A DNA stretch of 64,000 nt from Novosphingobium sp. G106 (lineage in GTDB: Bacteria; Pseudomonadota; Alphaproteobacteria; Sphingomonadales; Sphingomonadaceae), in NCBI RefSeq assembly GCF_019075875.1, contig NZ_JAHOOZ010000001.1, positions 4,216,001-4,280,000 of the forward strand. The letters run 5' to 3'. The notes beneath the pieces were generated by a model. The model worked only from the letters and a program-made list of their open reading frames with translations, made no database searches and was not told the origin of the DNA. The stretch's first letter is position 1; each line of letters opens with the position of its first letter. Of this stretch, positions 27,029 to 47,587 are shown in pieces. The position numbers were made by a program, and so were the translations under genes.

Positions 27029-27361
27029 ATGGAAGCACCCAGCCTGACTCTGAGCCCCTCGGCAGCCGCCCGCGTCGCGGCAATCGCCGCCAAGACGGGC
27101 AAGCCCGCAATCCTGCGGCTTTCGGTCGAGGGTGGCGGTTGCTCGGGCTTCCAGTACCAGTTCGGCTTGGCCGAGGCGCCCGATGCCGAGGACCTGGTCA
27201 GCGAGACCGACGGCGTGCGACTGGTGGTCGATCCGGTCAGCCTCGACCTCGTTTCCGGCTGCGTCGTCGATTTCGTCGGATCGCTGGGCGGCGCTGCCTT
27301 CCGCGTCGAGAACCCCAATGCCGTGGCCGGCTGCGGCTGCGGCTCGAGTTTCTCGGTCTGA
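27029..27361 (+). CDS. erpA: A-type iron-sulfur carrier, IscA/ErpA/HesB family
   Basis: A 110-residue A-type carrier that delivers Fe-S clusters to target proteins. The three ligand cysteines are C38 in VEGGGCSGFQY, and C102 and C104 in AGCGCGSSFSV. The ErpA name is by similarity; IscA or SufA cannot be excluded. It lies 7 bp before xth. Confidence 0.9.
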   Translation: MEAPSLTLSPSAAARVAAIAAKTGKPAILRLSVEGGGCSGFQYQFGLAEAPDAEDLVSETDGVRLVVDPVSLDLVSGCVVDFVGSLGGAAFRVENPNAVAGCGCGSSFSV

Positions 27362-33177: not shown

Positions 33178-33797
33178 CGCGGCAGCTCACCGAGATCGCG
33201 CAGCGCGCCCAGAACCTGCAACAGCGGCATGCCGAGCACGGTGAAATGATCGCCGTCGATCCGCTCGAACAACTGCACGCCCCGCGCCTCGATGCGGAAC
33301 ACGCCGACGCAGCCCGCGACCGCCGGCCACTCGGCATCGAGATAGGATTCGATAAAGCTGTCCGACATGGGCCGGACGTGCAGCTCGGCCGTCGCCGCAT
33401 GAGTCCACAGCGTCGCGCCATCGCGCACCAGCGCCGCCGCACTATGCAGATACATGATCCGGCCTGCGAAGAAACGCAGGTGTGCCGCCGCTTCCTCCCG
33501 GCTCTTCGGCTTGTCGAACCGCTTGCCGTCGACCGCGACAAGCGAATCGCTGCCCAGGACCAGAGCATCGCGCTGCTCGCATGAAACCGCGAAAGCCTTC
33601 TGCTCGGCGAGCAGCAACGCGATCACCTCAGGCGGCTTCCCGGCCTGGTCGTGCTCGATCGCACGCTCGTCGATGTGCGCCGGGATCGCTTCGAAATCGA
33701 CGCCGGCGGCCGATAGCATCTCGCGGCGAGAAGCGCTTTGCGAAGCGAGCACGAGCGGCCGCAGGCGAGCCTGGCCTGAACTGGTGGGAAGAGTCAT
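33174..33797 (-). CDS. maf: Maf family nucleotide pyrophosphatase
   Basis: A 207-residue Maf protein, which hydrolyses non-canonical or UTP/dTTP nucleotides. The motif LVLASQSASRREMLSAAG at the N-terminus and VLGSDSLVAVDGKRFDKP in the middle are typical. In the same conserved gene order. Confidence 0.94.
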   Translation of the reverse strand: MTLPTSSGQARLRPLVLASQSASRREMLSAAGVDFEAIPAHIDERAIEHDQAGKPPEVIALLLAEQKAFAVSCEQRDALVLGSDSLVAVDGKRFDKPKSREEAAAHLRFFAGRIMYLHSAAALVRDGATLWTHAATAELHVRPMSDSFIESYLDAEWPAVAGCVGVFRIEARGVQLFERIDGDHFTVLGMPLLQVLGALRDLGELPR

Positions 33798-34639
33798 ATC
33801 GGTTTGGGTCCAGCCGGTGTGGTATCGCCAGAAGCCTGGCGTTCGTTAAGCAGGTTGATCACCGCCGCTGCAGTCTCTTCGATCGAGCGGCGGGTGACGT
33901 CGATCACAGGCCAGCCGTTATCAGCGAACATGCGCCGTGCATATTGCACTTCGCGGCTGACCTTCTCGGTATCCACATAGGCCGTCTCGGGTGACTGGTT
34001 GAGCGAGAGCAGCCGGTTGCGACGCACCTGGATCAGGCGCTCCGGGGCCGTCGTCAGCCCGACCACCAGCGGCCGGCGCAACCCGAACAGCGCGTTGGGC
34101 GGCGGGCTTTCGATGACGATGGGAATATTGGCGACCTTGTAGCCGCGGTTGGCGAGGTAGATCGACGTCGGCGTCTTCGACGAGCGCGACACGCCGGCGA
34201 GGAGGATGTCGCAATCCTCCCAATCCTCCCAGGCAACGCCGTCGTCATGCGCGATGGTGAACTGGATCGCCTCGACGCGCGCGAAATAGGCGTCGTCCAT
34301 CAGGTGCTGGCGGCCGGGCTTGCCCTTGGCTTCCTGGCCGAGCACGTTTTCAAGGGTATCGGTCACGGCGTCGAGTGCGGCGACCGAGGGCAGGGCAAGC
34401 GCCCGGCAATGCTCTTCGAGCCGGGTGCGCGTCTCGCTGTTGACGAGCGTGAACAGCACAAGGCCGGGATTGGCGGCGATATCGGCCATGATCCGGTCTA
34501 GATGCTGACGCGAACGGACCATCGGCCAGAAATGGCGCACGACGTCGGCATCCTCGAACTGGGCGAGGGCGGCCTTGGCGATCATCTCCAGCGTTTCGCC
34601 GGTGGAATCCGACAGAAGGTGGAGGTGAAGGCGGGTCAT
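33794..34639 (-). CDS. ppsR: Pyruvate,water dikinase regulatory protein (PpsR family)
   Basis: A 281-residue bifunctional kinase/phosphorylase-like regulator (DUF299) of PEP synthase or pyruvate phosphate dikinase, with LLAGVSRSSKTPTSIYLA as the P-loop region and PIVIESPP. It is the gene directly left of the predicted oriC and starts at 34639. Confidence 0.93.
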   Translation of the reverse strand: MTRLHLHLLSDSTGETLEMIAKAALAQFEDADVVRHFWPMVRSRQHLDRIMADIAANPGLVLFTLVNSETRTRLEEHCRALALPSVAALDAVTDTLENVLGQEAKGKPGRQHLMDDAYFARVEAIQFTIAHDDGVAWEDWEDCDILLAGVSRSSKTPTSIYLANRGYKVANIPIVIESPPPNALFGLRRPLVVGLTTAPERLIQVRRNRLLSLNQSPETAYVDTEKVSREVQYARRMFADNGWPVIDVTRRSIEETAAAVINLLNERQASGDTTPAGPKPI

Positions 34640-34993
34640 GCGGTCGGATCGGGCCTGCTTGTGGATGGGGCCTGATCAGGGATCAGGGGCTGGGGACAAA
34701 GCCTAGCATAAATCATGAGAGAGAAGGTCTGACAACTTCGGGGGGTCATTCGCTGCCCACTGGCGGCATTCGGATCCGGACTCTGTGGACAGGTGGACAG
34801 CGCTTCCCACAGGCTGGGGATAGCTGGGATAAGCCTTGCTTGACGGCGCAGCGAAGGGAGTCGCCAAGCGGCTGCCCTCTGTTCACGGCGGGACAAATCG
34901 GGCAAGGCGCCGCTGTCCCCGATATCCACAGGACCTACTACCTACAGAATCCTATTATAAATCTTTTATTTTATTGGATTGGACCCTTCCGAA
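34640..34993. other. Predicted chromosomal replication origin (oriC)
   Basis: The only gene-free stretch over 300 bp besides the rrf2 leader. It carries DnaA-box-like sequences: ATATCCACA at 34922-34930 (8 of 9 to TTATCCACA), and TGTGGATGG (34660-34668), TGTGGACAG (34784-34792) and TGGGGATAG (34815-34823), 7 of 9 on the other strand. An AT-rich block (about 34945-34980) follows, fitting a DNA-unwinding element. Three GANTC motifs, the CcrM methylation site, occur at 34779, 34858 and 34947. Genes on both sides are transcribed outward, and hemE is the flanking gene, as at Caulobacter Cori. No canonical CtrA box was seen. Confidence 0.72.
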
Positions 34994-36022
34994 ATGTCCG
35001 GACTCCTCCTTCGCACGTTGCGCGGCGAGAATGCTTCCGAGCGACCGATCTGGCTCATGCGCCAGGCGGGACGCTACCTGCCCGAGTACCGCGCGCTGCG
35101 TGCCGAGAAGGGCGGATTCCTTGCGCTCGTCTACGACAGCGACGCCGCGGCCGAGATCACGCTCCAGCCTATCCGCCGCTTCGGCTTCGATGGCGCGATC
35201 CTGTTCTCCGACATCCTGATCGTGCCCTATGCGATGGGCCAGGATCTCGAATTCCTGGTGGGCGAAGGCCCGCGCCTCTCGCCCCGGCTCGTGGATACCG
35301 CACTGGATGGCCTCAGAGCTGCGCCTGAGCGTCTCGAGCCGATCTATGCCACCGTGGCCAAGGTCAAGGCCGGACTCGGCGCTGGACGGACGCTGCTGGG
35401 CTTTGCCGGAAGTCCCTGGACCGTCGCGACCTATATGGTTGCCGGCGAGGGCAGCCGCGACCAGCACGTCACGCGGGCGATGGCCTATCGCGATCCCAAG
35501 GGCTTCCAGGCGATCATCGATGCGATCGTCGAGGTTACCGTGGATTACCTCGCCGGCCAGGTCCGTGCCGGCGCCGAAGCCGTGCAGCTGTTCGACAGCT
35601 GGGCGGGCAGCCTGGCCCCGGCCGAATTCGAGCGCTGGGTGATCGCACCCAATGCCGCGATCGTCACCCGGCTCAAGGCGCATTTTCCGAGTTTGCCGGT
35701 GATAGGCTTTCCCAAGGGCGCGGGCGAGAAGCTGCCGGCCTATGCCCGCGAGACCGGGGTCGACGCGCTGGGGCTCGACGAGACGATCGATCCGTTCTGG
35801 GCGGCGAAAGCTCTGCCCGAGGGCCTGCCGGTACAGGGCAATTTCGATCCGCTGCTGATCGAGGCGGGCGGACCGGAGATCGACCGCCAGGCCACGCGCA
35901 TCCTCGATGCCTTTGCCGATCGGCCGCATGTCTTCAACCTGGGCCACGGCATCGGTCAGCACACGCCTATCGCGCATGTCGAGCAGCTGCTTGCCGTCGT
36001 CCGCGGCTGGCGGCGCCCCTGA
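34994..36022 (+). CDS. hemE: Uroporphyrinogen decarboxylase
   Basis: A 342-residue heme pathway enzyme converting uroporphyrinogen III to coproporphyrinogen III. Signatures: RPIWLMRQAGRYLPEYR at the N-terminus, ILFSDILIVPYAMG, and GFAGSPWTVATYMVAGEGSR. The ATG at 34994 was preferred over an in-frame TTG at 34979. Its promoter must overlap the AT-rich end of the predicted oriC. It is 22 bp from hemJ. Confidence 0.97.
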   Translation: MSGLLLRTLRGENASERPIWLMRQAGRYLPEYRALRAEKGGFLALVYDSDAAAEITLQPIRRFGFDGAILFSDILIVPYAMGQDLEFLVGEGPRLSPRLVDTALDGLRAAPERLEPIYATVAKVKAGLGAGRTLLGFAGSPWTVATYMVAGEGSRDQHVTRAMAYRDPKGFQAIIDAIVEVTVDYLAGQVRAGAEAVQLFDSWAGSLAPAEFERWVIAPNAAIVTRLKAHFPSLPVIGFPKGAGEKLPAYARETGVDALGLDETIDPFWAAKALPEGLPVQGNFDPLLIEAGGPEIDRQATRILDAFADRPHVFNLGHGIGQHTPIAHVEQLLAVVRGWRRP

Positions 36023-43151: not shown

Positions 43152-43167
43152 TGTTCCACGTGGAACA
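43152..43167. other. parS site 1
   Basis: TGTTCCACGTGGAACA, a perfect 16-bp palindrome identical to the canonical chromosomal parS, in the mnmE-mnmG gap. It is about 2.5 kb from parA and 8 kb from the predicted oriC. Confidence 0.96.
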
Positions 43168-45059: not shown

Positions 45060-45709
45060 TCGCCGATGAGGGCGAAGCTCGCGCCTGGTTGCGTCAGCTT
45101 CCGGAATGCGATGATGCAGCGATGGTCCGGCTCGAGCGGTTGGCCGACCTGCTCGCCGATGAGAACCAGCGCCAGAACCTCGTCTCGGCGGCGAGCTTGG
45201 AGGAGGTCTGGCGGCGGCATATAGCCGACTCTGCTCAGCTCGTGCCGCATGTTCCACGTGGAACATCGCCGTGGATGGATCTGGGAACGGGTGCGGGGTT
45301 TCCCGGTCTCGTCGTTGCTGCGCTCCGTCCGGACTGCGAAGTCGTGCTCGTCGAATCGCGCAAGCGGCGAATTGAATGGCTGGAGCGTGCGGCCAGCGAG
45401 CTCGGTCTGACTCGCGTGACCGTGCAGGGCTTGCGACTTGAAGATGTCCCGGCGCGGAACGCCGCGGTCATTTCTGCGCGCGCTTTTGCTCCACTTGACC
45501 GATTGCTGGACCTATCCGCACGATTTTCCACAAGCGACACGGTGTGGCTGTTGCCCAAGGGGCGTTCGGCGCAGCAAGAACTCGCTATGGTTCGCGGATG
45601 GAATCACATGTTCCACGTGGAACAATCGCTGACCGATTCGGAAGCCGGTGTGATCGTTGGAACTTTGGCGGGGCCGATACGACCCGCCAGGAAGGGAAAA
45701 GCTTCGTGA
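45056..45709 (+). CDS. rsmG: 16S rRNA m7G527 methyltransferase RsmG (GidB)
   Basis: A 217-residue SAM methyltransferase of G527 of 16S rRNA. Motifs: [11 protein letters not shown], the SAM-binding [20 protein letters not shown], and [14 protein letters not shown]. Two perfect parS sites are embedded in its coding sequence and specify residues such as HVPRGT and MFHVEQ. Its stop overlaps parA (GTGA). Confidence 0.95.
45250..45265. other. parS site 2 (inside rsmG)
   Basis: Perfect TGTTCCACGTGGAACA. It is in frame within rsmG (HVPRGT), so the codon choice is constrained by both the protein and ParB binding. Confidence 0.96.
45609..45624. other. parS site 3 (inside rsmG)
   Basis: Perfect TGTTCCACGTGGAACA near the 3' end of rsmG (residues FHVEQ), 82 bp before parA. 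Confidence 0.96.
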
Positions 45710-46482
45710 TTCGCGTAGCAATCGCCAATCAGAAGGGCGGGGTGGGCAAGACCACCACTGCCATCAACATCGCCACGGCCATGGCCGCAACTGGGTGGAA
45801 GACGCTGCTGATCGATCTCGATCCGCAGGGTAACGCTTCGACGGGGATCGGCATCCAGGCCGCGGACCGCCTGCGCTCGTCCTACGACGTGCTCATCGAT
45901 GAGGCGTCGATCGCTGAATGCGCGATGGCGACTCGGATCCCCGGTCTCGATGTCGTTGCGGCGACCGTTGATCTGTCCGGAGCCGAGGTCGAGCTTGTGG
46001 CGGTGGAGAACCGCACCGACAAGTTACGCCAGGCTCTCGATCGCGAGAACGGCTATGACATCTGCTTCATCGATTGCCCGCCCTCGCTCGGCCTGCTGAC
46101 GCTCAATGCTCTGAGCGCGGCCGATACGCTGCTCGTTCCGCTACAGTGCGAGTTCTTCGCGCTAGAAGGCCTGAGCCAGCTTTTGAAAACTGTCGAGCAG
46201 GTTCAGCAGCGCTTCAATCCCGAGCTCGGCATCATTGGTGTGGCGCTGACGATGTTCGATCGCCGCAACCGCCTGACCGACCAGGTGGCCGATGACGTGC
46301 GCTCGTGCCTCGGCCCGCTGGTGTTCGGATCGACGATCCCGCGCAACGTCCGGCTGTCCGAGGCGCCGAGCCATGGCCTGCCGGCACTCGTCTATGATCA
46401 CGCCTGCGCCGGCAGTCGCGCCTATATGGCCCTGGCGCGCGAGCTGATCGCGCGGCTGCCCGAACAGAGGAAAGCGGCATGA
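45706..46482 (+). CDS. parA: Chromosome partitioning ATPase ParA
   Basis: A 258-residue Walker-type ATPase with the deviant P-loop ANQKGGVGKTTTAINIATA, LIDLDPQGNAS, and FIDCPPSLGLLTLNAL. ATP-bound dimers on the nucleoid move ParB-parS complexes. GTG start at 45706 overlaps rsmG, and the gene overlaps parB (ATGA). Confidence 0.97.
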   Translation: MIRVAIANQKGGVGKTTTAINIATAMAATGWKTLLIDLDPQGNASTGIGIQAADRLRSSYDVLIDEASIAECAMATRIPGLDVVAATVDLSGAEVELVAVENRTDKLRQALDRENGYDICFIDCPPSLGLLTLNALSAADTLLVPLQCEFFALEGLSQLLKTVEQVQQRFNPELGIIGVALTMFDRRNRLTDQVADDVRSCLGPLVFGSTIPRNVRLSEAPSHGLPALVYDHACAGSRAYMALARELIARLPEQRKAA

Positions 46483-47453
46483 GCGACGATCCCGTCATCC
46501 GTATTGCCGTGCCGCCGGCCGAAGCCGCTCCGGCGAAGCGCAAGCCGCCCGCGCTGGGTCGCGGCCTCGGCGCATTGATGGGCGAGACCCGCCGCGAGGA
46601 ATCGGTCGTTGCTGCCCGCAGCGTCGGCAGCGCACCCGCGGCACCGACTAGCGGACTGGCGATGCTCTCGATCGCGGATATCGAGCCACACCCCGAACAG
46701 CCGCGCCGCTATTTCGCTGAGGAAGCGCTCGACGAGCTTGCCGCCTCGATCGCGCAGCGCGGGGTGATCCAGCCGGTCATCGTCCGACCGCTACGCGCGG
46801 GCCGCTATCAGCTCGTTGCCGGCGAACGCCGCTGGCGCGCGGCGCAGCGTGCGCAGCTGCATGAAATCCCGGCGATCGTCCGCGAGCTGACCGAGCGCGA
46901 GGTCATGGCCCTAGCGCTCATCGAGAATCTGCAGCGCGAAGATCTCAATCCGATCGAGGAAGCGCGCGCCTATCACCGTCTTGCCGAGCACGAGAGTCTG
47001 ACCCAGGCTGAGATCGCGCGGATGGTCGACAAGAGCCGCAGCCATGTCGCCAATATCCAGCGCCTGCTGCTGCTACCCGAACCGGTCATGATGCTGGTCG
47101 AGCAGGGCAAGCTGTCGATGGGCCACGCCCGCGCGCTGATCGGGGCCGAAGGCTCCGAGAAGCTGGCCGAGTTGGCAGTGGAGAAAGGGCTGTCGGTCCG
47201 AGAGGTTGAGAAGCTCGTGCGCCGCCAGACCAAGGGCGATGCGCCTTCCGCGCCGCGCACGGCCAGGCCCGAGCGCAGTTCGGCCGACGACGCGGATATC
47301 GCAGCGGTACAGGGTCATCTCGAGGAGTTCCTCGGCCTGCCGGTAAAGATCCTCGCCGACGCCGATCCGCGTTCGGGCGCGGTGACGATCCGCTACCGCA
47401 CGCTCGACCAGCTTGATCTGATCTGCCAACGGTTGACCGGTGGTGGTATTTAA
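46479..47453 (+). CDS. parB: Chromosome partitioning protein ParB
   Basis: A 324-residue CTPase and parS-binding protein. It has the N-terminal basic PPALGRGLGALMGE motif (ParA-activating), the ParB/CTPase region LQREDLNPIEEARAYHRL with GERRWRAAQRAQ, a helix-turn-helix (LTQAEIARMVDKSRSHVANIQRLLLLPE), and a C-terminal dimerisation domain. Translationally coupled to parA. Confidence 0.97.
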   Translation: MSDDPVIRIAVPPAEAAPAKRKPPALGRGLGALMGETRREESVVAARSVGSAPAAPTSGLAMLSIADIEPHPEQPRRYFAEEALDELAASIAQRGVIQPVIVRPLRAGRYQLVAGERRWRAAQRAQLHEIPAIVRELTEREVMALALIENLQREDLNPIEEARAYHRLAEHESLTQAEIARMVDKSRSHVANIQRLLLLPEPVMMLVEQGKLSMGHARALIGAEGSEKLAELAVEKGLSVREVEKLVRRQTKGDAPSAPRTARPERSSADDADIAAVQGHLEEFLGLPVKILADADPRSGAVTIRYRTLDQLDLICQRLTGGGI

Positions 47454-47587
47454 GTAATTGATAAATAATTATAAAGTTTAGAACTCGGTGAGCAGTTGCT
47501 GGCGCGCCGAGGGCTAGTCGCTTGGGGTGGCGGTAAGTCTCAATTCCCTTCCTTGCCGTGATGCGGTGTGCGCTCTATCTCTCCGGC

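Follow-up and report, generated by a model that had tools for sequence, protein, structure and literature searches.

A predicted hemE-linked chromosomal replication origin in Novosphingobium sp. G106, with a conserved triplet tract next to its best DnaA box

The intergenic gap between ppsR and hemE in Novosphingobium sp. G106 is very probably the chromosomal replication origin, a hemE-linked oriC (we put the probability at about 0.96). This reading of the sequence is based on the position of the skew minima, the genome's only parS-like sites lying nearby, the divergent arrangement of ppsR and hemE, conserved DnaA boxes and a conserved module running from a box to an AT-rich block. The same features, including the class-wide gene order and module, support the original prediction of a chromosomal origin next to hemE. 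The window, that is, the whole stretch of DNA analysed, is 64 kb long and corresponds to C1:4216001-4280000. C1 (6,172,107 bp) is one of the 5 contigs of a 7.23-Mb assembly with a reported contamination of 4.4%. Positions without a contig name are those of the window. The gap and its immediate neighbours are as follows:

33794..34639, minus strand: ppsR (Kinase-PPPase, pyruvate phosphate dikinase regulatory protein type; PF03618, 308.7 bits)
34640..34993, no strand: predicted replication origin region, the ppsR-hemE intergenic gap (skew minima, parS proximity, conserved gene order and sequence module)
34994..36022, plus strand: hemE (uroporphyrinogen decarboxylase; PF01208, 352.9 bits), start codon ATG at 34994

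The hemE start at ATG 34994 is favoured over TTG 34979 because in 70 of the 80 named relatives the alignment with the longer ORF begins no earlier than residue 4. The best-matching named relatives of hemE come from Novosphingobium, Erythrobacter, Sphingomonas and related genera, which marks the organism as a sphingomonad. Pfam identifies the left neighbour as ppsR, a name absent from the original prediction. Of the flanking genes that had been named there from sequence, maf, aroE, coaE, hemE, rho, mnmE, mnmG, rsmG and a ParA-type ATPase are confirmed by Pfam matches. The strand switch is also as described: with a home-made gene caller, every gene called between 28.2 kb and the gap lies on the minus strand, and hemE on the plus strand.

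Chromosome-scale skew was calculated from 39 sampled 20-kb stretches together with the window, on a contig that is possibly not closed. Among these samples, cumulative GC skew reaches its minimum in the window, at the sample that begins at 4,236,001. The maximum follows the sample at 1,120,001, at a distance of about 3.1 Mb, which is half of C1. The sampled trend is noisy, with positive skew at 3.84 and 4.00 Mb, for example, and negative skew at 4.64 Mb. In a contiguous 500 kb, the cumulative T-A minimum falls at 34949, inside the gap. The cumulative G-C minimum, at 27113, is shallow, lies 7.7 kb from the gap and belongs to a broad trough of about 24-42 kb; a second, shallower local dip occurs near 4.42 Mb. 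A skew minimum within a few kb of 34.8 kb had been anticipated, and both the 500-kb minima and the sampled chromosome minimum are in agreement with this. A scan of the complete 7.2-Mb genome for the parS 16-mer, allowing up to two mismatches, identifies only three sites. All are in the window, 8-11 kb from the gap and in the same region as a ParA-type ATPase gene:

43152..43167, no strand: parS-like palindrome TGTTCCACGTGGAACA (genome-wide 16-mer scan)
45250..45265, no strand: parS-like palindrome TGTTCCACGTGGAACA (same scan)
45609..45624, no strand: parS-like palindrome TGTTCCACGTGGAACA (same scan)
45544..46482, plus strand: ParA-type ATPase gene (PF13614, 201.7 bits), start codon provisional

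Within the gap, sites resembling the DnaA box TTATCCACA are followed by a short trinucleotide tract and an AT-rich block:

34660..34668, minus strand: DnaA box-like site, 7/9, CCATCCACA, probably chance (counterpart in 0/103 relatives)
34691..34699, minus strand: DnaA box-like site, 7/9, TTGTCCCCA (counterpart of at least 7/9 in 96/103 relatives and of at least 8/9 in 64/103)
34784..34792, minus strand: weak DnaA box-like site, 7/9, CTGTCCACA (counterpart in 25/103 relatives)
34815..34823, minus strand: DnaA box-like site, 7/9, CTATCCCCA (counterpart in 69/103 relatives)
34913..34921, plus strand: degenerate upstream partner box CTGTCCCCG, the start of the conserved 58-bp module, abutting the same-direction box at 34922
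34922..34930, plus strand: best DnaA box, 8/9, ATATCCACA (counterpart in 68/103 relatives)
34935..34947, plus strand: trinucleotide tract CTA-CTA-C-CTA-CAG, DnaA-trio-like, of which the DnaA-bound strand would be the complement (from the sequence and a period-3 tract at the same place in relatives)
34945..34980, no strand: AT-rich block, probable DNA unwinding element (29/36 A+T; meets the end of the tract; counterpart in relatives)

The single 8/9 match of the original prediction (34922, plus) stands, but the number of 7/9 sites is four and not three (34660, 34691, 34784 and 34815, all minus). Judging from the number of relatives with a counterpart (96, 69, 68, 25 and 0 of 103), one or two of the five box-like sites are probably due to chance. 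In the partner box at 34913-34921 the CCCCG part is common in relatives, as seen from base frequencies. There is no perfect DnaA box in the gap; the exact TTATCCACA occurs 8 times in the genome.

The gap has the top box score among 295 intergenic segments of 80-800 bp (39 stretches plus the window, defined with the home-made gene caller), and its score is reached by only 2 of the 15,327 sliding windows taken across the 39 stretches, both at one locus. Of the 19,986 windows in the contiguous 500 kb, 18 have a score of at least 6. The 14 of these that are listed fall at C1:4420751-4420951, where the score rises to 7, and at C1:4330576-4330676, which ties with the gap at 6. With similar-scoring windows elsewhere in the 500 kb, the cluster is unusual but not unique. 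The highest cluster of the 500 kb (C1:4420751-4421304) reads by eye as ileS coding sequence beside a ribF-like frame; in this by-eye reading of the cluster at C1:4420851, Tyr-Pro-His codons yield TATCCACA. The box count was rejected as sole proof of an origin in view of the score of 7 in the ileS-like stretch, the tie at C1:4330576-4330676 and an exact TTATCCACA count that is uninformative. The original prediction had named a better box cluster elsewhere as evidence against it. Such clusters exist only in a trivial sense (the higher one in the ileS-like stretch and the tie), and there is none beside dnaA.

The AT-rich block had been placed adjacent to the boxes at 34945-34980, and this is what is found. 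Eight of 40 stretches, window included, contain a 36-mer at least as A+T-rich, so the block counts by its position and not by its rarity. A richer 36-bp block (32/36 A+T) is present at 47447-47482, about 12.5 kb downstream.

Of 110 loci, counting that of the window, 105 have ppsR and hemE as a divergent pair; the other 5 have no ppsR match. The divergent pair is also present in 33 of 40 genomes of the class (one per family, one of them from the window's own family; 7 without a ppsR match) and in 29 of 40 further genomes (11 without a ppsR match), which gives 62 of 80 further alphaproteobacteria. These 80 were drawn from 92 genomes, other than the window's own, with a hemE match; the hemE search covered 114 genomes and gave no match in 21. 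No co-directional pair occurs in the 110 loci or in either set of 40 genomes. The 28 gaps used below as a held-out set are those of the 29 divergent pairs after removal of one gap longer than 1 kb. Four loci (L104, L112, L095 and L097) have no ppsR match in about 3 kb upstream of hemE; in the first three, a similar tract and AT block can still be seen by eye at the end of the upstream region. The hemE-origin regions of two assemblies labelled Bacillus sp. 2B10 (L111) and Microvirga sp. SRT01 (L080) are sphingomonad-like, and these assemblies are probably mislabelled.

Sequence conservation was assessed with a 58-bp matrix (weak box, box, tract and AT block) built from sphingomonad gaps with the window left out. 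Over the 64-kb window the matrix scores 49.3 bits at 34913 on the plus strand and 15.2 one base further on; the best location elsewhere reaches 5.7. In 31 of 33 class gaps (one per family) the matrix score is above the 99% level of shuffled gaps (6.8 bits), always on the hemE strand; of the remaining two, one scores 6.0 bits and the other has no site on that strand. The null distribution consists of 660 shuffled-gap maxima, the highest being 19.1 bits, from shuffles that preserve base composition only.

Initiation could proceed from these elements as follows. DnaA would bind three conserved boxes, those at 34691, 34815 and 34922. A DnaA filament starting from the abutting same-direction pair (34913-34930) would grow onto one strand of the tract at 34935-34947 and would open the AT-rich block at 34945-34980. 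Helicases would load there and two forks would leave as the origin fires. The ParA system, acting with the parS-like sites 8-11 kb away, would then move the new origins apart.

GANTC, the CcrM-type methylation site, occurs three times in the gap:

34779..34783, no strand: GANTC, CcrM-type methylation site (motif scan)
34858..34862, no strand: GANTC site (motif scan)
34947..34951, no strand: GANTC site at the junction of the tract and the AT-rich block (motif scan)

For the window gap alone this is not significant compared with its own shuffles (3 vs 1.68, p 0.23). Over 104 unique gaps the mean is 4.48 per gap vs 1.37 in shuffles, and 105 of 105 gaps have more sites than their flanks do on average. 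Where flank windows of matching GC content were available (92 loci), the figures are 4.10 vs 0.89. At least three sites are also found in 29 of 546 GC-matched windows and in 9 of 64 GC-matched intergenic segments of at least 200 bp. We do not claim the enrichment as new, since GANTC sites in Caulobacter origins are reported in passages of PMC3973325. A RAMA-domain protein at C1:2142466 is a candidate CcrM, and CcrM-type control of initiation, in which GANTC methylation would influence timing, is possible. Control of the gap by CtrA and IHF was considered and rejected: there is neither a strict CtrA site (TTAA-N7-TTAA) nor a strict IHF site in the gap. Strict CtrA sites are present in 1 of 104 unique sphingomonad gaps and in 3 of 33 class gaps (L162, L170 and L185).

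The origin call has points against it: another cluster in the 500 kb has a higher box score, the G-C minimum is displaced by 7.7 kb, and perfect boxes and strict CtrA and IHF sites are absent from the gap. Could the gap then be only the shared promoter region of ppsR and hemE, with boxes that are DnaA-responsive or fortuitous, and with the true origin elsewhere in the neighbourhood? The gap must indeed also house two promoters, box clusters of similar score exist elsewhere, and GANTC, at 8.5/kb in the gap vs 3.0/kb in intergenic DNA, also marks CcrM-regulated promoters. However, both skew minima and the genome's only parS-like sites lie within about 11 kb, and a box-tract-AT module at one place across families would not be expected of promoter DNA. 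We therefore regard this explanation as very unlikely.

Less likely still is an origin beside dnaA. Such origins are common in many other bacteria, but here dnaA (C1:5,168,921) is 0.92 Mb from the gap, its 3.2-kb locus includes no DnaA-box cluster (box score at most 1), and the sampled skew has no minimum there. A hemE-linked origin in the ppsR-hemE gap remains the preferred reading.

In Caulobacter crescentus, hemE lies at the origin, Cori, as reportedly described by Brassinga et al. 2001. The likeness to Cori asserted in the original prediction holds for the gene neighbourhood. It does not extend to a strict CtrA site, and the gap is in this respect different from the Cori type with CtrA control. 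Both have weak DnaA sites instead of perfect boxes and parS within about 8 kb (passages of PMC4468827).

Since hemE-linked origins have been published, the gap would be an origin of an already known kind: according to passages of PMC4741004, an oriC near hemE is predicted for most Sphingomonadaceae in DoriC. That of Sphingopyxis granuli TFA lies, like the gap, beside hemE among conserved genes, with several putative boxes and a putative unwinding element. The conserved hemE neighbourhood, several boxes and a skew minimum are all found here, and we see no essential difference from the Sphingomonadaceae type in those passages, which make no mention of a triplet tract.

This tract might be the part of the origin that a specialist would not expect. 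The founding paper on DnaA-trios is reportedly that of Richardson et al. 2016. The basal unwinding system (BUS), consisting of DnaA boxes and DnaA-trios, is described for B. subtilis and H. pylori in passages of PMC8287927, PMC10721633, PMC6669920 and PMC8235120. In H. pylori the trios lie downstream of the boxes as 5'-CTA-3', and their T is strictly conserved. Opening is abolished when the first and third bases are changed and the T is kept, so the first base matters in this species too (passages of PMC8235120). In B. subtilis, the trio guanine is contacted by Arg202 and Glu228 and the middle adenine by Asn187; at the middle position cytosine is about as active as adenine, and guanine and thymine are less active (passages of PMC10721633). 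Passages of PMC8287927 give 15% of the origins examined as lacking DnaA-trios and voice the suspicion that deviant trios without the middle adenine exist. The gap resembles the BUS in having two abutting same-direction boxes, a short spacer, 5'-CTA-3' triplets (3'-GAT-5' on the bound strand) and then AT-rich DNA. Boxes adjoin the tract as in the BUS (34913-34930, followed by the tract at 34935), but the window falls short of the three or more 3'-NAN-5' trios within 16 bp of a DnaA box that passages of PMC8287927 specify: it has two consecutive canonical units, and the third CTA is one base out of frame. A further difference is that the middle base in alphaproteobacteria is not confined to T on the CTA strand.

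Downstream of the box, sequence identity at a lag of three bases is 0.516 vs 0.306 in shuffles (z 11.2) in 31 class segments and 0.414 vs 0.288 (z 12.3) in 99 sphingomonad segments. As the 58-bp matrix itself contains the tract, an anchor using only the boxes was also employed; it gives a lag-3 z of 6.6 in 33 class gaps, although it and the full matrix point to the same place in only 22 of the 33. In three repeats, matrix matches in shuffled gaps gave no such signal at lag 3. Of the 31 class segments, 24 have a run of four or more C[ACT]N units (shuffle mean 5.3, maximum 12 in 500). This pattern, which bars G at the middle by definition, was first counted post hoc, and the count was for this reason repeated on new genomes with criteria fixed beforehand. 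In the 28 held-out gaps, the box-only anchor gives a lag-3 z of 7.5 and at least four units in 13 (shuffle mean 2.8, maximum 7; random gap places mean 1.4, maximum 4). The full matrix gives a z of 10.5 and at least four units in 19 (shuffle 4.2, maximum 9).

Runs of three canonical units, by comparison, are not enriched. Three or more NTN units, which read 3'-NAN-5' on the complementary strand, are found in 5 of 31 class segments vs a shuffle mean of 4.2. The held-out figures are 8 of 28 with the box-only anchor (shuffle 4.5, maximum 10; random places 7.9) and 7 of 28 with the full matrix (shuffle 5.7); among sphingomonad segments, 20 of 99 have three or more. Middle bases on the top strand, with G barred by the pattern, are T 46, A 53 and C 55 in the first set and T 29, A 30 and C 26 in the held-out set (box-only). 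The commonest unit is still CTA, and tracts with CTA exceed shuffles (24/31 vs 17.6; 26/28 vs 15.8; box-only 17/28 vs 12.9), both of which speak against an entirely new motif. CTACTA occurs in 7 of 31 class segments; the window reads CTA CTA C CTA. On the bound strand, middle T and G are thus as frequent as A: recognition is different here, or else DnaA does not read the tract as trios.

DnaA of the class (the best 30 loci of 39 genomes with a match, plus the window's own) was aligned to 8btg_A, which we take to be B. subtilis DnaA; its residues 187, 190, 193, 202 and 228 agree with passages of PMC10721633. Lys at 202 and Glu at 228 are found in 31 of 31. Residue 187 is Tyr in 28, Phe in 2 and Ile in 1 (the window's own). 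In the window's family it is V in 14, I in 6, F in 5, Y in 2 and N in 1 of 28 (of 30 loci, one partial and one without a match were left out). Residue 187 is only partly a clean class marker: one family DnaA keeps Asn, and in other classes of the phylum most DnaA proteins likewise have neither Asn nor Gln there. Among the latter it is Thr in 10, Ala in 10, Gln in 5 and Asn in 2 (best 27 of 67 genomes), and loss of Asn187 is therefore not special to alphaproteobacteria. The PF00308 search also returned repeated weak ATPase matches on contigs C1, C2 and C3 of this genome, five of them sharing a 269-aa frame; these are probably insertion-sequence helper ATPases in several copies.

Our tentative reading, to which we give somewhat less than even odds, is that alphaproteobacterial origins may carry relaxed DnaA-trios, approximately 3'-GNW-5' on the bound strand instead of 3'-GAT-5', in which DnaA would read mainly the guanine and not the middle adenine. 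Such a trio would fit a DnaA with Tyr, Phe, Ile or Val at 187 and with Lys and Glu at the guanine-contact positions. Its probability is lowered by the enrichment of single CTA units and by the weaker activity of a middle T or G in B. subtilis. Passages of PMC6727663, PMC10797057, PMC10225481, PMC5043019 and PMC8235120 do not describe alphaproteobacterial trios. An earlier description is possible: a supplementary figure in PMC8235120 shows trios of over 20 phyla.

If correct, the origin call fixes the ori-ter axis of this genome. The class-wide tract would provide a concrete candidate for the deviant trios suspected in passages of PMC8287927, together with a residue-level prediction for DnaA.
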